IMG/VR virus record: IMGVR_UViG_3300042691_029660 | Coordinates: 1 to 25,695 of that record | DNA length: 25,695 nucleotides | Strand: one strand, 5' to 3' | Origin: a virus | In this document: positions 3,856-25,529 of the stretch, piece by piece | Layout of the letters: every line of letters starts with the position of its first letter | How positions within the stretch are numbered: the first letter of the stretch is position 1 | Program-made: the position numbers and the translations under genes | The notes under the pieces: model-generated | Told to the model about the DNA's origin: nothing | Seen by the model: the letters and a program-made list of their open reading frames with translations, nothing else | The model's database searches: none

Positions 3856-4446
3856 ATGTTTACTTATATGCAAGCAATCTATCAAATACGAAACAAAATA
3901 AATAATAAAATTTATATTGGAAGCACAAACAATATAAATAAACGATGGAATAATCATAAAAGTAAATTAAATAATAAAATACACGAAAATTCATATTTAC
4001 AAGCAGCTTGGGATAAATATGGAGAAGAAAATTTTGAATTTTCTATAATTGAAGAAGTAAATGACCAAAATAGAATAGAAAAAGAAATTTTTTATTTGCA
4101 AGAAACAAAAAGTTACGAAAGAGATATAGGTTATAATTTTGATAAAAATCCTACAGATAAGAGTGGTAAAAACAATCCATTTTATGGAAAACAACATTCA
4201 AAAGAAACTAAAGATAAAATTAAACTAATAGCTAATAATAGAAGTGATGAACTTAAAAATAAAATGGGAGAGAAGAATAGAGGCGAAAATAATAGTTCTG
4301 CTAAATTGAATAAACAAATAGTAGAAGAAATAAGAAACTTATATTCACTTGGTAATGAAACATATAAAAGTTTATCAAGAAAATATGGAGTCGGTAAATC
4401 AACAATACAAGCAATTATAGAATATAAATCTTGGAAGCACATTTGA
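3856..4446 (+). CDS. GIY-YIG homing endonuclease (free-standing)
   Basis: A 196-residue site-specific endonuclease that would cut capsid-region DNA of phages lacking it and so spread its own gene. The GIY-YIG nuclease domain covers residues 7-90: AIY (7-9), KIYIGS (18-23), R30 and H34 in KRWNNH, and E77 in RIEKEIFYLQ as the metal ligand. A NUMOD3 motif (NPFYGKQHSKET, 107-118) and a C-terminal helix-turn-helix (SAKLNKQIVEEIRNLY ... YGVGKSTIQAI, 148-187, ending SWKHI) provide DNA binding. All key residues are present, so it looks active. It is markedly more AT-rich than the capsid gene and has no Shine-Dalgarno at ATG 3856 or at the alternative ATG 3868 (which would begin MQAIYQI). It lies between two terminators, a typical insertion next to a conserved gene. 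Confidence 0.9.
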   Translation: MFTYMQAIYQIRNKINNKIYIGSTNNINKRWNNHKSKLNNKIHENSYLQAAWDKYGEENFEFSIIEEVNDQNRIEKEIFYLQETKSYERDIGYNFDKNPTDKSGKNNPFYGKQHSKETKDKIKLIANNRSDELKNKMGEKNRGENNSSAKLNKQIVEEIRNLYSLGNETYKSLSRKYGVGKSTIQAIIEYKSWKHI

Positions 4447-9940: not shown

Positions 9941-12772
9941 ATGAGTGGAGCAAATAAGTATCGTTTCGTTTCCCCCGGAATCCAAATAAAAGAGATAGAT
10001 CGTTCACAGGTAAATAACCTGAATGACGCTGTTGGACCAGTTCTTGTTGGTCGCGCTCGTCGTGGTCCCGGCATGGTTCCAGTAAAAGTTCGTTCATATG
10101 AAGAGTTCGTTCAAATATTCGGTGAGCCTGTTCGTGGCTCAACCGATGGTGATATTTGGCGTGAAGGAAACCTAACTGCTCCAGCATATGCTACATGGGC
10201 TGCTAAAGCATACTTGGCAAACTCAAGTCCACTAACATTCGTTCGCCTAATGGGTTCTGAACATCCAGAGGCTAATGCACAAGGTGCTCCAGGTTGGAAA
10301 ACTGATAAAACAATATCAACAACAGTAGCCGATAACGGTGGTGCTTATGGTTTATTCGTTATACCATCTGGCTCTTCAAGTGTAACTGGCGCTCTTGCTG
10401 CTATATTCTATGTTGATGCAAGTGCAAGTCTTGCTCTTGTTGGTCAAAACCCATCAGGAACAATGACAACCGGTTCAGCAACTCTCATCAAATCAATCGG
10501 CAACAACTTTGAGTTCCGAATGAAAGTTCTCAGTGGTGCAACAGTAAATGATGCAGCCATACTTGATACATCATTCAACTTTGATAAAAACTCTGATAAA
10601 TATATTCGTAAAGTTTTCAACACCAACCCAACACTTGTAAACTCCGCTATTACATCGGTTGATAATAGTGAAAAATACTGGCTTGGCGAAACATTTACTG
10701 ACTTCCTAACAGATACAGTTGCTACAACTTCTTCATACGCATTTATTGCTGGTCTAAAGAGCACAACTGCTGATCTCGGTGATTTCCAACTTGCAGCACA
10801 ACCAGCAAAAACTGGTTGGATCTTCTCTCAAGATCTAAGCACAGTAACCAGTTCATATAATCCACAAAATATGAGCAAACTGTTCCGCTTTGTTGCTCTT
10901 GGTGGAGAAGGTTCTGGTGATTGGAATCAACGCTCACTAAAAGTTGCAATAAGAGATATCAAATACTCACCAACACCATTTGAAAAATATGGTTCATTCA
11001 CTGTTGAAATCCGTTCAACTGGCGACTCTGATTCACAACCAGGTGTTTTTGAAGTATTTACAAACTGTAATCTAAATCCAAACTCAGAAAACTATGTTGC
11101 CAAGAGAATAGGCGATAAATATCTTGAGTGGACAGACGATCTTGCAACCGGCGAAAAGAGACACAAAGTATTTGGAAACTATGACAATGTTTCTAAACTT
11201 GTTCGTGTTGAAATGAACTCCCTTGTTGAAGAAGGTGGTGTTGATCCAGAATCACTACCATTCGGATTCCTTGGTCCAGTCAAATATAAAGCAGTAACAA
11301 TAACAAGTGGTTCAGCAATAACTGGCACCGACTTACTAAAAGCAGTTGGCAGAATACCATATGCTCCAGCAGGAACAAATGATACCATTGACATGACTGG
11401 TATTACAAATCTTACTGCCTCAGTAGTATTCCCAGAACTAAGAATGCGTGTGTCAAGTTCACAAGCAGGCGTTCTAAATGACCGCGATACATACTTTGGT
11501 GTAGTTAGCAATGTTGCAACTCGCGCTCAGTTCAATGAAGAGTATGTTGATCTTGTAAGAGTCAAACCATTCAACCTTGATACATTTGTTCCAACTGGCT
11601 CTCTCACCGAGTTCTCAACTATCTTCACTCTTGATGATGTAAATGAAGTCTCTGGTGCTGTTGGCAAATACTTCTGGCAAAATGGTAGTCGTGTTGCTGG
11701 TGGTTCTATAACCGCTGTAAGTGCTTCATATCGTTCGCTACTTGACAAAGGTGTAGACAAGTTTGTTATGCCAATGTTTGGTGGTTTTGATGGTCTAAAT
11801 GTAAAAGAAAAAGAACCATTTGCCAACCGTGTTCTTGGTGTAACATCAGAGCCAAGATCAAACTATGCTCAATATAGTTTAGAGAAAGCACTTGATATGG
11901 TTAGCGATCCAGAAGTTGTAGAAATGAATCTACTAACTGTTCCAGGTGTAACAAACACAACTGTAACCAATAAAGTTCTTGATGTAGCTAAAACAAGAAA
12001 CGATACTCTTGCAATAGTAGACATTGAAGGTGGATATCAGCCAACAACTGAAAATGCAAATCCAGAAAGAAGTCGTGTTGGTAATGTCAACACTGCAGTA
12101 ACCAGTATCAAATCAAGAGCACTAAACAATAGTTTTGGTTGCGCTTATTATCCATGGGTTTCCATTGATGCAGGTGGTGGTATACCACTATGGGTTCCAC
12201 CAAGTGTTGTTGCTCTTGGAACAATGGCAAGCAGTCAAGAATCAACTGCTGTATGGTTTGCACCAGCAGGCTTCAATCGTGGCGGTCTAAGTAACGGTTC
12301 ATCAGGTCTAAATGTTCTTGATGTTCGTGAAAGACTAAGTCTCAAACAGCGTGATGCGCTATATGAAGTGAATGTAAATCCAATCGCTTCATTCCCAAGT
12401 GAAGGTATTGTAATATTCGGTCAAAAGACCCTACAAGCAACCGCTTCTGCTCTTGACCGTATCAATGTTCGTCGTCTTGCTATCTATCTCAAAGACAGAA
12501 TCGGCAAGATTTCAAGAGGCATCCTATTTGATCCAAACTTACAAGTTACTTGGGATCGTTTCCTTGGAGAAGTCAATCCACTTCTTGCTGATACAAAAGC
12601 GCGTTTTGGTCTAAGTGATTACAAAGTTGTTCTTGACAGCACAACAACAACACCAGACCTCGTAGACCGCAATATAATGTATGCCAAGGTTTATATCAAG
12701 CCAGCCCGTGCTATTGAGTTTATTGCTATAGACTTCATTATCACAAATACTGGTGCAAGTTTTGACGAGTGA
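9941..12772 (+). CDS. 18: contractile tail sheath protein (gp18-like)
   Basis: A 943-residue sheath subunit that contracts to drive the tube through the cell envelope. The N-terminus has VSPGIQIKEIDRSQ (about 10-23), GPVLVGRARRGPG and EEFVQIFGEP, the standard gp18 opening. The last 200 residues contain PSEGIVIFGQKTLQATASALDRINVRRLAIYLKDRI, ILFDPNLQVTWDRF and PARAIEFIAIDFIIT, the most conserved sheath region and the handshake that links subunits. T4 gp18 has 659 residues; the additional 280 or so lie in the middle (about 120-600) and probably form extra domains exposed on the tail surface. The gene has its own promoter motif and AGGAG. Confidence 0.93.
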   Translation: MSGANKYRFVSPGIQIKEIDRSQVNNLNDAVGPVLVGRARRGPGMVPVKVRSYEEFVQIFGEPVRGSTDGDIWREGNLTAPAYATWAAKAYLANSSPLTFVRLMGSEHPEANAQGAPGWKTDKTISTTVADNGGAYGLFVIPSGSSSVTGALAAIFYVDASASLALVGQNPSGTMTTGSATLIKSIGNNFEFRMKVLSGATVNDAAILDTSFNFDKNSDKYIRKVFNTNPTLVNSAITSVDNSEKYWLGETFTDFLTDTVATTSSYAFIAGLKSTTADLGDFQLAAQPAKTGWIFSQDLSTVTSSYNPQNMSKLFRFVALGGEGSGDWNQRSLKVAIRDIKYSPTPFEKYGSFTVEIRSTGDSDSQPGVFEVFTNCNLNPNSENYVAKRIGDKYLEWTDDLATGEKRHKVFGNYDNVSKLVRVEMNSLVEEGGVDPESLPFGFLGPVKYKAVTITSGSAITGTDLLKAVGRIPYAPAGTNDTIDMTGITNLTASVVFPELRMRVSSSQAGVLNDRDTYFGVVSNVATRAQFNEEYVDLVRVKPFNLDTFVPTGSLTEFSTIFTLDDVNEVSGAVGKYFWQNGSRVAGGSITAVSASYRSLLDKGVDKFVMPMFGGFDGLNVKEKEPFANRVLGVTSEPRSNYAQYSLEKALDMVSDPEVVEMNLLTVPGVTNTTVTNKVLDVAKTRNDTLAIVDIEGGYQPTTENANPERSRVGNVNTAVTSIKSRALNNSFGCAYYPWVSIDAGGGIPLWVPPSVVALGTMASSQESTAVWFAPAGFNRGGLSNGSSGLNVLDVRERLSLKQRDALYEVNVNPIASFPSEGIVIFGQKTLQATASALDRINVRRLAIYLKDRIGKISRGILFDPNLQVTWDRFLGEVNPLLADTKARFGLSDYKVVLDSTTTTPDLVDRNIMYAKVYIKPARAIEFIAIDFIITNTGASFDE

Positions 12773-18164: not shown

Positions 18165-20780
18165 ATGAGCGAAGAAGATCAAAAGCAATATTATCGTAGA
18201 ATATCAGATCAAGCAACACTTATTCAAAATATTGATAAGTTGCGAATATCTCAGTTTAATAATACTGTATCGGTAACAGAAACCTATGTAAATCCACCAA
18301 ATAGTGTTTATGTTACTGGTTTAGAAATATCAAGTGCAGATAAAAAAGAAGTAGATGGTATATCTGTAAACAAACTTTATAACTTCGAAAAATTTATAGA
18401 AGAGTATAACAAACTTGGCCCTGCCTCACTTTCTCTTTTGAATCCATATATTGAAATATATAAAATATATGAAGATGGACTTGAAAATGTTATACCTTTT
18501 AATAACTTTTTTCCCAAATCAGCATTAGACGCTATTACATCTGGAAAATCAGACCGTGGCTATCAAGCAAATATACAAAGTGTAAAAATAGCTTCACAAG
18601 GTAAAGATACAGCTACAGCATTTATTTATACAGTTCAAATGAACTTTATTTTTGATTCAGTTCAAACTCTTTTCAATGATAACTCTCGCTATATAGAACT
18701 TTTCAACCCTCCTAAAAAACTGAAATATAAAAGAGGCGATGGAGATCAAAAGTATTATCAAATAAAATTGAAGTTTGGCTGGAAAATAGACCCCCCAGAA
18801 CAAATACTGAATAACAACTTGAACCCAGTTTCTGTTAAAGAATTTGCCAATTCATCTGGCAGTGAAATATTTTTGAACTATATAAAACATAATATTGGTA
18901 TAAATGAAGATGGTTCTGTAACGCTAATGGTTGAATACGTTGGTTCTCTTGAAATGGAAGCAAGAAACCCAAATAAATTTTCAGTATTGTCCGATGAATC
19001 AATAGAAAATCTAAAAGAAATACAAGAAAAAATAGATCTTATTAGTGAGTCATTAAAAGATAAAGGTCTAAAACACGAACCTGTATATAAAGATGATGGT
19101 TCAATTGAAAAAGTAAAAATACTTGATAATGACGGAAAAGAAATAGAAAAACCAAGAAGCGAAGCAACAGAACTTGAAAGATTGTATGCAGATAAAAAAA
19201 AGAATGAAGGAAATAATGAAAAAAACTTCAAAGAAGGTATAATAAACAATATATTAAAACAATTTGGCAGCGATTTACAGCAAGGACTAAACTATGCAGG
19301 TAAATTTCCAGTTTTTTTAATAAATGAAAATATATATCTTCAAAAAAGACAATTACTTGAATCAAGTGGAGTTGGTCCACTAGAAGCCAGCAATAAACAA
19401 CAACAAATAATAAAACTTGAAAATATAGAGTCTAATACAAAACTTGATACAGGTTTTACTTTTGATAAATTCTCTGAAAATATTGACACAAAAAACTACC
19501 TAAACAAACTTGAATTTCCCGAATCGGCTACCACAATAGCAGGAAATTTGCTTGGTGGAGAAAAAGTTGGCTTACGGTCTGATCAAAAATATTATAGAAT
19601 ACCATTTTTTACATTTCGTAACTTATTAAAGTCACTTCAAGCCTTATATGGTAAAGATAATAAAGAAAGTGAATTTATTATACTTGGAACTGAAATATTT
19701 ATTTCCAGTTTCAAAACAGGTGAACTAATAGACCCAAAAACTCTTAGTGAAAATTCTGAATATAAAATCATGATTGATAATGGTCTTAGCCTTGGTAAAG
19801 GTAATGTGGCACTTATAGAAAGTAAACTCAAACAAATAAACATTTTAGATATTCCAATAGCACTTTCAACATTTAAATATTGGTTCAACAAAAACATAAG
19901 TTCTCAAAACTTGACACAAATGAGTTTGATGACATTTTTGAATCTTTGCATAAATGAACTTCTTGTAGCGTGTGTAAACCCAGTAAACAATGAATATGTT
20001 CCAAAGCAAAATATAACTTTTAAAATATCAATGGATAAAATATCAATTGATAAAAATAGTCCTTTATTAGCAAAAATAAAAGATAATCAAAATTCTTATA
20101 AAAACATATCTTTGGGAGGTGGTGAAACACTTGTTAGCACAGAACAAACAACCAAGCAAAGCGATATTATAAAGAAAAATATTATACTATTTTATGCCGC
20201 TCCAAAACATAATACAAGAGTTAGCAATATAGCAAAAGACATTAAAGATGGTATACCTCATTTCTTTTATGGACAAAATAAAGGGATTGTAAACAAGATA
20301 AACTTTCGTGAAGAAAATATACCATTTTTCAAAGAAGCAAATATTCAATCACAAGTTGATAGAAAACCATGGCGACCAGGTGTGTTTCTTAGAGGAAAAT
20401 ACAATGTAACAATAGAAACTCTTGGAACTGTAAACTTTCGTGTTGGTAGTATGATATATGTTTCTCCTTCCTTTCCCGGAGTTCTAAATACGGCAGAGCC
20501 AATACAATATGGTATTGGTGGTTATTTTATCATAGTATCAATAAGTACACAAATAGAGTCAGGTAAATATATAACAACACTTGAAGCAAACTGGGTTGCA
20601 ACAGGAACTGGAGAATATACCGATCTAAGTCACCTACCTTTCAAAGTTGTCACACTTCCAAAACCACTAGCAGATATACAAGCAGAACAAGAAGCGGCGA
20701 AAATAAGCACTCCACAATCTATGGAGAAAACTGAATCAAAAAATGCTGAAAGCCCTAGTGTTAGACGGGGTTCAATATGA
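18165..20780 (+). CDS. large baseplate hub-like protein
   Basis: An 871-residue protein without a clear single family match. The N-terminal quarter is beta-rich (YIEIYKIYEDGLENVIPF, SVKIASQGKDTATAFIYTVQMNFIFDSVQTLF), in keeping with a tube-like hub domain. Residues about 285-345 are a highly charged, low-complexity helix. The C-terminal 130 residues (RGKYNVTIETLGTVNFRVGSMIYVSPSFPG, then GIGGYFIIVSISTQIESGKYITTLEANW) resemble the closing barrel of hub proteins such as T4 gp27 or Mu gp44, where a short loop enters a strand with the I.(S/T)..I..G.Y.T.LE... pattern. Its place among baseplate genes fits a hub. No lysozyme or spike motif is visible. It has no Shine-Dalgarno and probably relies on translation of the gene three bases upstream. 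Confidence 0.45.
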   Translation: MSEEDQKQYYRRISDQATLIQNIDKLRISQFNNTVSVTETYVNPPNSVYVTGLEISSADKKEVDGISVNKLYNFEKFIEEYNKLGPASLSLLNPYIEIYKIYEDGLENVIPFNNFFPKSALDAITSGKSDRGYQANIQSVKIASQGKDTATAFIYTVQMNFIFDSVQTLFNDNSRYIELFNPPKKLKYKRGDGDQKYYQIKLKFGWKIDPPEQILNNNLNPVSVKEFANSSGSEIFLNYIKHNIGINEDGSVTLMVEYVGSLEMEARNPNKFSVLSDESIENLKEIQEKIDLISESLKDKGLKHEPVYKDDGSIEKVKILDNDGKEIEKPRSEATELERLYADKKKNEGNNEKNFKEGIINNILKQFGSDLQQGLNYAGKFPVFLINENIYLQKRQLLESSGVGPLEASNKQQQIIKLENIESNTKLDTGFTFDKFSENIDTKNYLNKLEFPESATTIAGNLLGGEKVGLRSDQKYYRIPFFTFRNLLKSLQALYGKDNKESEFIILGTEIFISSFKTGELIDPKTLSENSEYKIMIDNGLSLGKGNVALIESKLKQINILDIPIALSTFKYWFNKNISSQNLTQMSLMTFLNLCINELLVACVNPVNNEYVPKQNITFKISMDKISIDKNSPLLAKIKDNQNSYKNISLGGGETLVSTEQTTKQSDIIKKNIILFYAAPKHNTRVSNIAKDIKDGIPHFFYGQNKGIVNKINFREENIPFFKEANIQSQVDRKPWRPGVFLRGKYNVTIETLGTVNFRVGSMIYVSPSFPGVLNTAEPIQYGIGGYFIIVSISTQIESGKYITTLEANWVATGTGEYTDLSHLPFKVVTLPKPLADIQAEQEAAKISTPQSMEKTESKNAESPSVRRGSI

Positions 20781-22051
20781 AAATAAAAAACACAGACAAC
20801 AAATACCTAAAAAGTATAAACGACACAGCAACGCAGACAAAATATTTCTCAGATGATCCGTTGCATTCCATAATACCGCAAGCAAACAACAAGTCAAATG
20901 CTTTGTCTATGTATTTGAATAGACTAAACTATGAAATACAGTTTGATCGTGTTTTGCCAGTAATGTCACTCAAACCAGAAAACTTCAAAGACTTTATATA
21001 TACAGATCAGCTATATGGTAAAATAAATACAAATAGTGATATTATCAATATAAACGAACAAGAACTGAAGTCTTTATCTGCAAAACAAACACTTAGCCTT
21101 GTTGCTCCTGCAGCCGATGCTTTCAACGAACTTTTCGTAAGGCACAAAAATCTGCTTGACAAGCAAGTTATAGATAGTAAAAGTGTGTTTGCTGACATAA
21201 CCCCTCAAAAAGCTTTTATATCACCTAACTTGCAACATAATGAATATCTAAATGTTTATTTTAATAACTTTTATAACTTTATAAACGAAAACGATCTAAA
21301 TAAAAAAATAACTGATTTTCATAGTTTTATAAAGTATTTTATAGTCTTTTATAATACAAGAGAAAGAATAATAAACAGAACTACATTTATAAAAACTAAA
21401 ATGTGTAGTCCTCTCACTACTGGACTTGTTGTAGAAATAGCAGATCACAAACATGGCGACGATAGAGAAGTTTACACAAAATATATTCAAGATCCTTCTT
21501 TCCCAATATTTGACACCCTCACAAAGCAATATGGGTTTGTAATGGATAAACACTCTCCATGGAGACTTGTATTTGACATTGCCGGCGCTAATGCACAACC
21601 TTATTTGGTTAGATACAATATATCAAGCACAGAAGAGTATTTCAATCAGTTTTATTATTACACTGACTATTTCAACTATGAAAACTTAAAAATAAACTTA
21701 CTAAACTTGTATAACTTTATTGTAAAAGAAAAGCCAATATTTAGAGATGTAAAAACAAAGTCAGTAAATGGTAAAGTGTGTATAAGTAAAGTTTTTATAG
21801 AAAGAAACTTTATTATATATGACGATCTGTTCCAAAATATATCAGAAGAAGATATGCTAAAAATATATGCATACACTATTTGTTGTGAAAATAACATGAT
21901 CTCAACACAAACTCAGTTTGAAACACTGTTTGCTGAAATGATGACAATAAAAAGATATTTCAATGATTTTGAAGCATTTGATTTTCTAAATAAACAAAGA
22001 AAAGAACTCAGTCAAACAGGAACAAACACTTTCACAAAGAACTTTTTCTGA
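20777..22051 (+). CDS. unrecognised virion-associated protein
   Basis: A 424-residue protein that I do not recognise. Its ATG overlaps the stop of the hub-like gene (ATGA at 20777-20780), so the two are translationally coupled and the product is probably used with it. It is unusually rich in Asn, Tyr and Phe (for example YFNQFYYYTDYFNYENLKINLLNLYNF split across about 288-314). There are no membrane spans, signal peptide or catalytic motif. GFVMDKHSPWRLVFDIAGA (about 253-271) is the segment most likely to be a conserved core. It is the last gene of the structural block, followed by a change of promoter type. A baseplate wedge or cell-contact role is a guess from position. Confidence 0.55.
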   Translation: MKIKNTDNKYLKSINDTATQTKYFSDDPLHSIIPQANNKSNALSMYLNRLNYEIQFDRVLPVMSLKPENFKDFIYTDQLYGKINTNSDIININEQELKSLSAKQTLSLVAPAADAFNELFVRHKNLLDKQVIDSKSVFADITPQKAFISPNLQHNEYLNVYFNNFYNFINENDLNKKITDFHSFIKYFIVFYNTRERIINRTTFIKTKMCSPLTTGLVVEIADHKHGDDREVYTKYIQDPSFPIFDTLTKQYGFVMDKHSPWRLVFDIAGANAQPYLVRYNISSTEEYFNQFYYYTDYFNYENLKINLLNLYNFIVKEKPIFRDVKTKSVNGKVCISKVFIERNFIIYDDLFQNISEEDMLKIYAYTICCENNMISTQTQFETLFAEMMTIKRYFNDFEAFDFLNKQRKELSQTGTNTFTKNFF

Positions 22052-22091: not shown

Positions 22092-23276
22092 ATGACTTTT
22101 TTGACCCTTGATGATAAAGAAGAATGCGTTGGCTACTACCATGATGGAAAACTGGTGTTTGGTGAACCGATACCACAGCACTTGGATAAAACTTGGAAGT
22201 ATCACACTTATCTAAAAAATAAAAACATCAAATGCGCCAACATCTTTGTCGCCGGCAAAGAATACGATGAAGTATGTCCAGAACATCTCCAAGAAGAATG
22301 GAAGGCTCTAAACACAAAAGCAAAAGCATTTATTCGTAGTTTTATTGAATCAAAAGTTTCACTAAAACAAAACTGCTTTTTTGATCTTGTTCCGCAAAAG
22401 TTTTTAGCAGATTATTGTGAAATAAAGTGTCAAATATCAAACTGGGTATTTGAAAACATCCCAGAACCACAAGATTACCAGTTCAAACTGGAGCTTGAAA
22501 TGTTGATCACTGAAATGCGAAAGCAAAAAATAAGTTTTGATGAAGAAGAAATAAAAAACAACTTACATGATATAAAAACAAAAGAGTTTTATCAAACTTA
22601 CGGTCAAAAAGACAACTATATCAATTATAACCAGTTTTCTTCAAAGACTGGCCGGCTAACAACAGAAGAAAAAAGTTTTCCTATTCTAAATCTATCAAAA
22701 AATTTGAGATCATATATCAAAGCAGATAATGACTTTTTGTTAGATATTGATTATAACGCTGCCGAGGTGCGTGTATTTCTCGCATTAGGCGGCGCAAAAC
22801 AGCCCACAAGCGACATTCATGAGTGGAACATGGATAAGTTTGGGTACAGCACCAGAACGCTTGCTAAAAACGATTTTATCTCTTGGTTATATGGCAAGAA
22901 AAACGATAGAGAAGCAGAGTTTCGTAAATATTATAACGCAGACAAAATAAAAAGCAAATATTGGGATGGTAATAGCGTTACAAATTATTATGGCAGAAAC
23001 ATACAGGCAGATGATTTCCATGCAATAAATTATATGGTTCAAAGCACAACAGCAGATATGGCGTTACGACAAGTGTTGAAGATAAATGAAATATTAAAAG
23101 GCTATGAATCAAAAATAAAAATGGTTATACATGACAATATTGTTATTGATATGAAAAAAGAAGAAAAACACCTAATAAAAAGTATTGTTGATACTTACAA
23201 TAATACAGACTTTGGTAAGTTCAAGTCTTCTATAAGAATAGGTAAAAATCTTGGAAATATGAGGAATATACTATGA
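22092..23276 (+). CDS. compact family A DNA polymerase (no exonuclease domain)
   Basis: A 394-residue protein with the family A polymerase motifs in order. TGRLTTEEKSFPILNLS (186-202) is the TGRLSS..PNLQN region. Motif A is DIDYNAAEVRVF (218-229) with catalytic D220. Motif B is R255...K259.......Y267 G268. N313..VQ317...AD321 is the Q-helix motif. Motif C is VIHDNIVID (345-353) with catalytic D348, where the usual Glu after Asp is Asn. Position +8 from R255, normally Phe or Tyr (E. coli F762), is Ile. Residues 1-130 carry no DxE exonuclease motif and are unassigned. At 394 residues it is far shorter than T7 (704) or Pol I. T4 itself uses a family B enzyme. The start has no clear Shine-Dalgarno. 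Confidence 0.82.
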   Translation: MTFLTLDDKEECVGYYHDGKLVFGEPIPQHLDKTWKYHTYLKNKNIKCANIFVAGKEYDEVCPEHLQEEWKALNTKAKAFIRSFIESKVSLKQNCFFDLVPQKFLADYCEIKCQISNWVFENIPEPQDYQFKLELEMLITEMRKQKISFDEEEIKNNLHDIKTKEFYQTYGQKDNYINYNQFSSKTGRLTTEEKSFPILNLSKNLRSYIKADNDFLLDIDYNAAEVRVFLALGGAKQPTSDIHEWNMDKFGYSTRTLAKNDFISWLYGKKNDREAEFRKYYNADKIKSKYWDGNSVTNYYGRNIQADDFHAINYMVQSTTADMALRQVLKINEILKGYESKIKMVIHDNIVIDMKKEEKHLIKSIVDTYNNTDFGKFKSSIRIGKNLGNMRNIL

Positions 23277-24121
23277 TATCTGTTGTAGGTATTGGTGAGT
23301 TTTGTTCTAAGCTTGCCAATGGTTTGTCAAAATATAGCCAATATAATGTTTATACAGTAGCAGATAGCAAACTATCAACAAACTGTCTTGTAGTGAAGTC
23401 ACTTGACAACGCAGAACAATATGAAAAGGAATATTCCGAGTTTGCTTGGAGTTCTCTTGTAAAAGACAGTAATACTGAAATATCGGTAATAGTGGATGGA
23501 TCGGAAGCAGTAAGTGGAGTTGTTCTTGCTCTTTTAGAAAAGTTTAGAGATAGAAAAATAAATGTTTATTATGTCAAGTCAGATCTTGAACTGATGGGAA
23601 ACATAGAAAAACTACAGCATAAAGTGTGTTTTGGTATACTACAAGAATATGCCCGTTCTGGTTTGTTTGAAAACTTTATTTTATTTGATAAAACAAAACT
23701 GGAAAATATGTTGAATAATGTCAGTATTTTAGAAATAGAAGAAGAAACAGCAACTCTTATGAATTCAACATTACATTATGTAAATGTTTATAGTAACTTG
23801 AAGCCAATGATGTCAAACAATGTATCAATGAGTGATATAACAAGAATACAAACCATTGGACTATCAGAAATAGGCTCTCTTGATATCAACTGGTTTTATG
23901 ATCTGGAAAATATAGAAGAAGTTATATATTATTTCGCTATAAACTCTGATACTCTCAAAAAAGAAAAAAAACTGCTACAAACAATAAAAAATCAAGTAAA
24001 AGAAAAACAAAAAGAAAACAACATAAAAGTCAGTTTTAGTATTTTTGAAACAAAATACAGCCAAAACTTTGTATATTGTGTAGGAAAAACAAAACATATC
24101 CAGCAGCAGCAGACGGCTTGA
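23273..24121 (+). CDS. FtsZ/tubulin-like protein with degenerate GTP loop
   Basis: A 282-residue protein that can be aligned by eye to FtsZ along its length. The first strand and loop ISVVGIGEFCSKLANGL (2-18) correspond to IKVIGVGGGGGNAV. DGSEAVSG (75-82) takes the place of the tubulin signature GGGTGTG, followed by VVLALLEKFRDRKINVYYVKSD (FtsZ: APVVAEVAKDLGILTVAVVTKP). FILFDKTKLENML (135-147) matches LITIPNDKLLKVL. NVSMSD (183-188) matches the T7 catalytic loop NVDFAD with the first Asp replaced by Ser. The C-terminal FAINSD...SIFETKYSQNFVYCVGK resembles the FtsZ activation domain. Most signature glycines are missing, so GTP binding is doubtful. It is coupled to the polymerase gene by an ATGA overlap. 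Its role is unknown. Confidence 0.55.
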   Translation: MISVVGIGEFCSKLANGLSKYSQYNVYTVADSKLSTNCLVVKSLDNAEQYEKEYSEFAWSSLVKDSNTEISVIVDGSEAVSGVVLALLEKFRDRKINVYYVKSDLELMGNIEKLQHKVCFGILQEYARSGLFENFILFDKTKLENMLNNVSILEIEEETATLMNSTLHYVNVYSNLKPMMSNNVSMSDITRIQTIGLSEIGSLDINWFYDLENIEEVIYYFAINSDTLKKEKKLLQTIKNQVKEKQKENNIKVSFSIFETKYSQNFVYCVGKTKHIQQQQTA

Positions 24122-24201: not shown

Positions 24202-24606
24202 ATGTCAAAAGTAACAGTAAATCGTCGTGGTCCCGTAGGAAATGCTGGTCGCGTAACACTTTCTCATCTTCGTGCTGGTGAGACTTTCCGTTTTCCACGT
24301 TCAGCCCCAGGAACCGTATATCAACTACTGACTATCTCAAACCGTTCTGTTGACGAGGGATTTGAGGGAGTAGATGCTTTTATGTTTGCTAATGTTGCTA
24401 CCGGACAAGTCTATGTAGCAGAGGATAGCCGAACTGTTGTTCCAGTTGACTGTTCTCTAACTGTTCGTGAGCGTGTAAATGTTGAACCAACCCGCTCATC
24501 ACGTTCAAACCGTTCTTCATCTGCTCGCTCAACTCGTTCTTCAACTACTCGTTCAAGCCGTTCATCAACCACTGTTCGTGCTACAAAGCGTCGCTCACGT
24601 CGTTGA
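24202..24606 (+). CDS. small protein with Arg/Ser-rich basic tail
   Basis: A 134-residue protein that I do not recognise. Residues 1-92 look folded and strand-rich (GRVTLSHLRAGETFRFP, GTVYQLLTIS, VDAFMFANVATGQVYVAE). Residues 98-134 are almost only Arg, Ser and Thr, ending KRRSRR, as expected for a tail binding nucleic acid or acidic protein. The frame is open further upstream to 24076, but ATG 24202 is preferred. It has AAGGAAA just before it and a strong promoter at 24118, and the upstream residues would overlap the previous gene. Codons are less AT-biased than those of the polymerase and FtsZ-like genes, suggesting high expression. A monocistronic unit with its own promoter and terminator, next to the ssDNA-binding protein gene; a DNA-coating or regulatory role is possible. 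Confidence 0.7.
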   Translation: MSKVTVNRRGPVGNAGRVTLSHLRAGETFRFPRSAPGTVYQLLTISNRSVDEGFEGVDAFMFANVATGQVYVAEDSRTVVPVDCSLTVRERVNVEPTRSSRSNRSSSARSTRSSTTRSSRSSTTVRATKRRSRR

Positions 24607-24791: not shown

Positions 24792-25529
24792 ATGGGTATT
24801 GATATTCGCGCTATGCAAAAAAAACTTGAAAAACTCAACAACAAGGGTAAGTCAAGTTCAGAGTCTGCTTTCTGGAAGCCAGATGATGGTATTCACGAAG
24901 TTCGTGTTCTACCAACACCAGATGGTGATCCATTCAAGGAGTTTTGGTTTCATTATAATGTTGGAAACCAAAGTGTAATGTGTCCAAAGCGTAACTTTGG
25001 AGAGGATTGTGCTGTTTGTGAGTTCGCCACAAAGTTGTTCAAGAGTGGTGAGCCAGATAGTGTTGCTGCAGCAAAAGAACTTTTTGTTCGTCAGCGTTTT
25101 CTATCTCCTATCCTTGTTCGTGGAAGTGAAAAGGATGGAGTAAAAGTTTGGTCCTACTCAAAGACTGTATATGAAGAACTACTAAAAACAGTTCTTGATC
25201 CAGACTTTGGAGATATTACAGATCCAGAAAATGGTTTTGATCTAAAAGTAGATAAGGGCAAGAAAAATGGTGCTCGTTATTCAACCATGACAGTAAAACC
25301 CAAGCCAAAGTCAACACAAATGTGCAAGGGTCTTGGTAGTCAAGAGTGCAAAGAACTACTTGATAGTGTTCCTGATCTATCAGCTATCTTTACACGAATG
25401 TCTCCACAGGAAGTTCAAGCAGCACTTGACAAACATCTGGCAGAACCAGATGAAACAAGTGTTGGTGTAGAAAAAGGTGGTGGCGTTGAAAATGCTGTTG
25501 ACGCCGCTCTACGCGAGCTTGATCTTTGA
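24792..25529 (+). CDS. 32: ssDNA-binding protein (gp32-like)
   Basis: A 245-residue protein that would coat single-stranded DNA during replication and recombination. The N-terminal basic segment (1-20, MGIDIRAMQKKLEKLNNKGK) corresponds to the cooperativity region. The core starts with FWKPDDGIHEVRVLP. A zinc site is formed by H54, C64, C73 and C76 (H-x9-C-x8-C-x2-C), matching the His-Cys3 zinc site of T4 gp32. The C-terminus is acidic (EPDETSVGVE... ALRELDL) and would recruit partner proteins. T4 gp32 is 301 residues, so this one is shorter, mainly near the C-terminus. AAGGAG precedes the ATG. It is followed by a promoter for the next gene. Confidence 0.88.
   Translation: MGIDIRAMQKKLEKLNNKGKSSSESAFWKPDDGIHEVRVLPTPDGDPFKEFWFHYNVGNQSVMCPKRNFGEDCAVCEFATKLFKSGEPDSVAAAKELFVRQRFLSPILVRGSEKDGVKVWSYSKTVYEELLKTVLDPDFGDITDPENGFDLKVDKGKKNGARYSTMTVKPKPKSTQMCKGLGSQECKELLDSVPDLSAIFTRMSPQEVQAALDKHLAEPDETSVGVEKGGGVENAVDAALRELDL

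Follow-up and report, generated by a model that had tools for sequence, protein, structure and literature searches.

The window analysed here is the whole of a 25,695-base IMG/VR virus record (IMGVR_UViG_3300042691_029660), which encodes a Gp23 major capsid protein (PF07068, E 1.4e-70) and contractile tail genes. Its open reading frame at 23273-24121 encodes a protein, named FzL here, that a first-pass annotation had read from the sequence as an FtsZ/tubulin-like protein with a degenerate nucleotide site, coupled to a phage DNA polymerase. We found that a tubulin/FtsZ-superfamily fold is well supported by the predicted structure of FzL, and that across a family of phage proteins the fzl gene lies, in near-invariant order, between genes for a PolA-type polymerase and a single-strand DNA-binding protein. 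The genes at the locus are as follows.

22092..23276, + strand: family A (PolA-type) DNA polymerase, stand-alone polymerase domain, 394 aa (PF00476, E 1.9e-11; conserved columns)
23273..23276, + strand: ATGA stop/start overlap of the polymerase and FzL genes (sequence)
23273..24121, + strand: predicted FtsZ/tubulin-fold protein FzL, 282 aa, ATG start (open reading frame, AlphaFold2 model, fold matches, dN/dS)
24202..24606, + strand: small Arg/Ser-rich basic protein between FzL and SSB (phrog_7832, E 7.1e-5)
24792..25529, + strand: gp32-like single-strand DNA-binding protein (SSB), 245 aa (PF08804, E 1.7e-11; phrog_1192, E 1.3e-27)

The reading frame and its overlap with the polymerase gene are in the sequence as annotated: the polymerase frame stops with the TGA at 23274-23276, which makes a four-base overlap with the ATG of FzL. 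When the window gene was compared with six relatives, dN/dS was 0.10-0.20 (two of the six had very few differences and two had dS near 1.6). These low ratios point to purifying selection, and the window gene is therefore not dying.

An AlphaFold2 model of FzL built from 124 aligned sequences reached a pLDDT of 95.7 and a pTM of 0.92; the model from the single sequence was poor (pLDDT 42.7) and was not used. Foldseek returned 532 PDB matches at E ≤0.001, and the 50 listed were all FtsZ or TubZ, with a best E of 4e-12 and TM-scores by query length of 0.62-0.71 among the PDB matches listed. The best VIA match was CetZ (3zid; Z 25.5 over 258 residues, 2.7 Å, 14% identity), followed by others such as TubZ (4ei7, Z 23.9), FtsZ (2r6r, Z 22.9) and tubulins (Z about 22); the matches listed had Z of 22.1-25.5 and spanned FzL residues 1-282 (one ended at 275), so that the match is whole-length and includes the second domain. 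All 50 VIA PDB matches listed, like the 50 from Foldseek, were FtsZ, TubZ, CetZ or tubulin. Among viral models, an uncultured phage supplied the best match, a protein of 452 residues named 'FtsZ Cell division GTPase' (E 7.6e-12; TM by query length 0.79), and PhuZ of phage Noxifer came fifth (E 1.8e-6). The predicted model has the tubulin/FtsZ layout of a GTPase domain, a central helix H7 and an activation domain. According to DSSP it has no helix H8 between H7 and strand S7, and it ends in coil after the strand at 266-273, with no C-terminal helix H11 or tail after that last strand.

Profile comparison showed that the family is homologous to FtsZ by sequence, a result that holds for the wider family and not for the window clade alone. 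A profile of 189 relatives, with the window clade left out, aligned by hhalign with 23 FtsZ sequences at a score of 48.8 (probability 82%, P 1e-5, 159 columns). Controls scored far lower: 16.1 for the reversed family, 18.4 for the best of 30 column shuffles, 18.6 and 13.6 for PolA and SSB against FtsZ, and 19.2 and 15.6 for the family against PolA and SSB. The match runs from S1 into H7 and so covers the GTPase domain; support for the second domain comes from the predicted structure. An earlier hhalign comparison of profile A3 with 18 FtsZ sequences of the WOR-3 phylum gave P 0.0056 over just 12 columns, and global modes gave no sensible alignment. Those 18, taken from 25 scanned loci (L165-L189), were the ones that passed a signature pattern, so their T4 signature is a product of that selection. 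The 15 sequences of the window clade did not reach FtsZ by hhalign (score 16.7, P 0.26), and the window sequence alone found no tubulin or FtsZ in Pfam, PHROGs or a PDB sequence search. The five segments in FtsZ order that the first-pass annotation had aligned by eye are thus beyond chance at the family level, and the alignment was right, yet unprovable from the window sequence alone. Its proposal of the fold holds up likewise: the family has a profile match to FtsZ, and the model matches tubulin/FtsZ structures over its whole length rather than an unrelated fold.

Other searches returned little. Profile A2 of the family matched two PDB sequences (E 0.7 and 0.75), neither of them a tubulin, and at the curated PF00091 cut-off FzL passed in none of 12 large FzL-bearing contigs. 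PHROGs gave no match for the window protein at E ≤1, and none better than 0.015 for 55 family members. For the same 55 members, the best match shown among the first 25 families by member count had E 6e-5 in Pfam and 8.9e-4 in NCBIfam. Two matches below the cut-off, Herpes_IE1 (E 0.0013) and Spt5-NGN (0.043), fell in the charged C-terminal part of the window FzL; we took both as chance, because Herpes_IE1 was matched by one of the 55 members and Spt5-NGN was not among the 25 families listed.

With the window protein as query, IMG/VR yielded six relatives, and profiles then raised this to 86 and then to no fewer than 597 matching stretches. Sequence extraction omitted three partial proteins of the family (L009, L042, L085) and, for some contigs, repeated loci; duplicate sequences and proteins shorter than about 250 aa were also removed before counting. 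A tblastn search of the 50,697 phage records of INPHARED, with two members as queries, gave no match. The GTDB genome set held one match (L164, WOR-3). At this locus (L164 5001-5837), within a chromosome record of a WOR-3 metagenome-assembled genome, PolA, FzL, SSB and a shortened RecA-like reading frame form a short block between bacterial genes. Either a small remnant of a phage or mis-scaffolding of the contig could explain this block, which has gaps nearby, and we set WOR-3 aside as a host clue for these reasons.

The nucleotide site was examined at the positions that hhalign, the motif scan and the model assign to it. The features in the window gene are listed below.

23288..23311, + strand: T1 loop position, residues 6-13, GIGEFCSK, mostly GLGxAGC in the wider family (hhalign pairing with FtsZ T1)
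23495..23518, + strand: T4 signature position, residues 75-82, DGSEAVSG (hhalign, motif scan)
23639..23659, + strand: LQEYARS, residues 123-129, end of H5, with Q124, R128 and S129 ranking near the top in conservation across the family
23690..23692, + strand: T6 residue 140, Lys here and Asn in 85% of other members, pairing with the Asn of FtsZ PNDRL (hhalign)
23738..23752, + strand: H7 residues 156 and 160, Glu and Ala here, pairing with Phe and Asp of FtsZ H7 (hhalign)
23798..23845, + strand: T7 region, residues 176-191, without NxDxxD and without H8 before strand S7 (DSSP of the model, motif scan)

DGSEAVSG in place of the T4 signature and NVSMSD at T7 (residues 183-188) are both present as first described. 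The T4 pattern GG[GSA][TS]G[TSA] was found in none of 270 FzL members and in 23 of 23 FtsZ sequences (18 of these picked by a like pattern), and the hhalign alignment places a two-residue gap in T4, which makes the FzL loop shorter than that of FtsZ by two. Similarly, the T7 pattern NxDxx[DE] was found in 0/270 members versus 22/23 FtsZ. The residues aligned with the guanine pocket behave differently. Outside the window clade (189 members, thinned at 80%), the conserved positions include G6 (95%), G8 (98%) and G11 (80%) in T1, G76 (95%) and S81 (76%) in T4, Asn140, Tyr156 (70%, with Phe in a further 11%) and Asn160 (87%). We take the FtsZ/tubulin positions aligned with residues 140, 156 and 160 to contact guanine. 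All 15 members of the window clade have Cys at residue 11, Lys at 140 and Glu, Asn or Asp at 156; Asn160 persists in three. From these alignments, residues matching the FtsZ guanine pocket are kept in most FzL members and lost jointly in the window clade and others, a point that is new. The loss of canonical nucleotide handling claimed at first thus stands, by sequence, for the window clade and has to be softened for the wider family, in which the T4 signature and the T7 motif are absent from 270/270 members but the pocket residues are mostly kept.

To describe this loss, we scored five pocket positions: 11 (Gly/Ala), 78 (Gly/Ser/Ala), 140 (Asn), 156 (Tyr/Phe/His) and 160 (Asn/Asp). Of 99 members thinned at 60%, 69 showed no change, nine one, one two, and 20 three to five. 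When columns were shuffled 2000 times, a procedure that ignores kinship, members with at least three losses averaged 3.9 with a maximum of 10, compared to the 20 observed. Five conserved non-pocket positions gave 69, 18, 8 and 4 members with 0, 1, 2 and 3 changes; this set is less two-peaked than the pocket, yet some joint change occurs there too. On a tree built without the pocket columns, the kept/lost label needs nine changes, at least four of them forced by well-supported branches; the tree is a quick search with 33 of 96 inner branches open, and a change could also be a regain. The pocket-lost members retain the SSB gene beside FzL in 20 of 20 cases and the polymerase gene in 18; it was not found at L084 and L346, the latter holding just about 140 bases upstream. 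Q124, R128, S129, G76, L85, Y100, G196 and Q277 are at 91-100% in pocket-kept and pocket-lost groups, while the low Asn140 and Asn160 in the pocket-lost group of 20 follow partly by definition from the positions that define it. Judging from the fold topology, the last part of H5 (LQEYARS), the last part of H7 (H168, N171) and the first residues of S7 (R191-G196) would lie on the face opposite the nucleotide. H168 drops to 50% in the pocket-lost group, which argues against reading this face as independent of the pocket.

The gene order polymerase-FzL-SSB is near-invariant and this is well supported. Among 157 FzL loci, a PolA homologue was present in 137 of the 140 with more than 600 bp upstream. 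In the 141 loci with a PolA match, the polymerase end always lay at most 1.7 kb before FzL or overlapped its start; it lay within 35 bases of FzL in 115, and 76 had the same ATGA overlap. The SSB gene was present in all 113 loci with more than 2.5 kb downstream. Conversely, among the best-scoring loci with 1.5 kb or more on the relevant side, FzL was found downstream of the polymerase in 70/71 and upstream of SSB in 53/54, and the exceptions (L252, L287) held other genes at its place. Some contigs enter twice, both in the 157-locus count and in the converse counts. FzL is single-copy in each of 12 contigs of 144-204 kb, eight of which were reached via polymerase or SSB searches. The replication-linked role first suggested from the overlap is therefore supported by gene order from both sides. 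The Arg/Ser-rich protein at 24202..24606 has a homologue in 12 of the 157 loci and so stands outside the general arrangement.

Several variants of the arrangement were seen. L266 and L215 have inserts of about 2.1 and 0.8 kb between polymerase and FzL. At L366:299-1933 (-), in a 172-kb contig, FzL and SSB lie in one frame, a single TAG and about 17 codons apart; readthrough of this stop would fuse the two proteins, and the arrangement could be chance. Among polymerase relatives, key residues are conserved in columns that we take to be motifs A, B and C, and the window polymerase has HDN as motif C. No exonuclease domain was found by Pfam or PHROGs in the reading frame 22092-23276. The window polymerase resembles a split polymerase, and no exonuclease part was recognised among the window proteins scanned. 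Upstream of it, reading frames 20777-22051 and 18165-20780 overlap each other at 20777-20780; they have no convincing Pfam or PHROGs match, and homologues occur in 110 and 88 of the 157 FzL loci, respectively.

A search with the capsid protein matched 2,434 phage records, the first being an uncultured 484-kb phage, Flavobacterium phage immuto, Microcystis phage Mel-JY01, an uncultured 595-kb phage and Rhodothermus phage RM378. Because immuto, Mel-JY01, RM378 and uncultured phages are its top capsid matches, sequence similarity places the window phage near the 'far-T4' phages (PMC4360716, PMC13037479). In PMC13037479, iPHoP links a marine far-T4-like cluster to several host groups, with Flavobacteriales having the biggest share (113/235); we do not equate this cluster with the FzL lineage. 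A term search did not find 'FtsZ' or 'tubulin' in the main texts of PMC4360716 and PMC13037479. Elsewhere in the window, a GIY-YIG/NUMOD3 homing endonuclease gene (3856-4446) lies directly 3' of the Gp23 gene. The tail sheath protein (9941-12772, 943 aa) has its sheath matches confined to the C-terminal third, and its first ~630 residues had no Pfam or PHROGs match at E 0.01 in the best stretches shown.

These relatives also bear on the history of FzL. In the FzL-bearing locus L005, genes for RecA and a 5'-3' exonuclease follow SSB, as they do in immuto and Mel-JY01. The FzL profile matched in 12 of 12 large contigs, and the same profile found no match in Mel-JY01, immuto, RM378 or the 484-kb metagenomic phage, in a search without a positive control. 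Immuto, Mel-JY01 and the 484-kb phage, the three inspected, have other proteins between PolA and SSB. As they hold other proteins at its place, FzL was either gained into, or lost from, a standing operon.

Compared with FtsZ (PF00091, TIGR00065), FzL shares the two-domain fold with H7 and, in most members, the T1 loop and the Asn/Tyr/Asn positions; it differs in the shorter T4 loop, the missing NxDxxD and H8, and the placement in a replication operon. CetZ proteins are archaeal cell-shape proteins. The CetZ structures (3zid, 4b45, 4b46), the best matches by VIA, have chains of 330-342 residues, and 4b45 is by its title in a GTP-analogue-bound protofilament, unlike the 282-residue FzL without a catalytic half-site. 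PhuZ and phage TubZ are, like FzL, phage-encoded tubulin folds, but PhuZ of 201phi2-1, whose gene neighbours are unannotated, keeps GGGSGS, and PhuZ has a catalytic Asp in T7 (PMC3678025). The hhalign comparison of the family with PhuZ was not significant (P 0.29), which speaks neither for nor against kinship.

Separate from FzL is another phage tubulin/FtsZ family, with proteins of about 364 aa, which we call tub2 (L365:1387-2481 (-), loci L367-L446); it had 107 matching stretches in IMG/VR by one query. Unlike FzL, it has a canonical GGGGGTGS, FDsKDLe after H7 and a strong FtsZ profile match (P 2.8e-13). The P of FzL against tub2 depended on direction (6.8e-4 one way, 4.2e-6 the other), and therefore no closer kinship of FzL with tub2 than with FtsZ is shown. 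The two families occur together, tens of kilobases apart, in at least six contigs (G037, 4 of 12 tub2 contigs and 3300032138_000008), while the other 8 of the 12 had no FzL match. Perhaps the BFVD entry A0A6J5RW92 ('FtsZ Cell division GTPase') is of the tub2 kind, a guess from its name. PMC7824862 mentions two distinct FtsZ/tubulin kinds in jumbo phages, either of which might conceivably correspond to FzL.

What might such a protein do? It could be a cytoskeletal filament protein of the PhuZ or TubZ kind, with a part in the positioning or segregation of phage DNA, and merely be encoded in the replication operon. The shared fold and the guanine-pocket residues of most members fit this, and known phage tubulins do position or segregate DNA (PMC3678025, PMC4244570). 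We nevertheless consider it unlikely, since the shared protofilament contact includes T7 and the base of H8 (PMC3678025), the T7 motif occurs in 0/270 FzL members, and the model shows neither H8 nor a helix C-terminal to its final strand. Moreover, the nine pocket-state changes on the tree came without loss of the gene, and at least six contigs also hold tub2, which with its intact GGGGGTGS and Asp-rich T7 is better suited to the task. A hydrolysis-driven FzL filament in particular is less likely because T7 and H8 are absent and a canonical-looking second tubulin is present in those contigs. Alternatively, FzL might regulate replication by sensing a nucleotide (GTP, dGTP or a guanosine signal) rather than act as a scaffold, the window clade being nucleotide-blind. 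Residues aligned with guanine contacts are kept in most members without the hydrolysis machinery, in a protein encoded next to the polymerase; the pocket has been lost repeatedly while gene and order persist, however, so sensing cannot be the whole function, and we hold this explanation to be doubtful.

It is more doubtful still that FzL blocks host division as a dominant-negative FtsZ mimic. An FtsZ fold without the catalytic half-site could cap FtsZ filaments, but FzL is fixed in a replication operon and not in a variable region, its identity to FtsZ is 9-16% among the structural matches listed, and T7/H8, one of the two capping faces, is missing; the interference with host FtsZ raised in the first-pass annotation thus found no support. 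That FzL is instead a Rossmann-type NAD(P)- or nucleotide-binding protein and no tubulin seems barely credible to us, even though HMMER alone gave a weaker and mixed picture, in which TrkA_N was matched in 10 of the 55 members (best E 6e-5) versus Tubulin PF00091 in 6 (E up to 1, best 0.0064), and NCBIfam listed some dehydrogenases beside TIGR00065 ftsZ, the latter in four members (best 0.0091). The Foldseek and VIA PDB matches listed are all of the tubulin superfamily, second domain included, and the profile alignment with FtsZ extends from S1 into H7. The Rossmann matches probably stem from the shared beta-alpha-beta GxGxxG start.

We give about an even chance to the reading that FzL is a tubulin/FtsZ-superfamily protein turned core replication accessory of a large uncultured far-T4-like phage lineage. 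Such an accessory would derive from a nucleotide-binding ancestor and would not be a GTP-driven filament, its function being suggested by its genomic setting. FzL may be made together with the stand-alone PolA by translational coupling through the ATGA, and may work beside the polymerase as a scaffold or tether between it and SSB-coated DNA, a role for which no T4-type or bacterial sliding clamp was recognised in these phages. A guanine nucleotide was probably a structural or regulatory ligand of the ancestor, bound without FtsZ-type hydrolysis, and several clades, the window's included, would then have dropped the ligand and kept the rest. More tentatively, the tubulin fold could be a part of the replisome: FzL would bind both PolA and SSB, replacing the sliding clamp or bridging polymerase and SSB, and its ancestral guanine ligand would have been lost up to about nine times with the replication role intact.

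The gp45 clamp PF09116 was matched in 0/12 large contigs and 0/3 cultured relatives, with a T4 control matching at 4e-53. PF02916 was above its cut-off in 0/16, in a search without a T4 control, and a bacterial beta clamp was found in 0/16, PCNA-type clamps and clamp loaders not being searched for. The absence of these clamps is supporting, not specific, evidence for a replication accessory. Several points weigh against this role. The clamp argument is weakened because cultured relatives without FzL also lack gp45 and beta clamp matches, and the absence of FzL from cultured relatives means that it is not generally needed for PolA replication. Furthermore, gene order suggests a shared process, not contact, and other functions expressed with replication genes, such as DNA positioning, packaging hand-over or host takeover, would give the same order.

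We found no description of the FzL family in the literature searched, most subscription papers and bioRxiv being outside its reach. The fold is already known, and the family, without a PHROG match of note, is unnamed as far as we found. The tubulin superfamily is known chiefly for GTP-driven filaments that act in division, shape and the positioning of DNA. A common phage family with this fold, lacking the hydrolysis machinery and encoded between polymerase and SSB, would signal that the fold can serve DNA replication. Natural pairs of pocket-keeping and pocket-lacking FzL proteins make it possible to ask what the nucleotide does in this fold besides filament dynamics. Our analysis thus gives a fold, at the level of a predicted structure, to a highly conserved gene of previously unknown nature in a widespread phage lineage.

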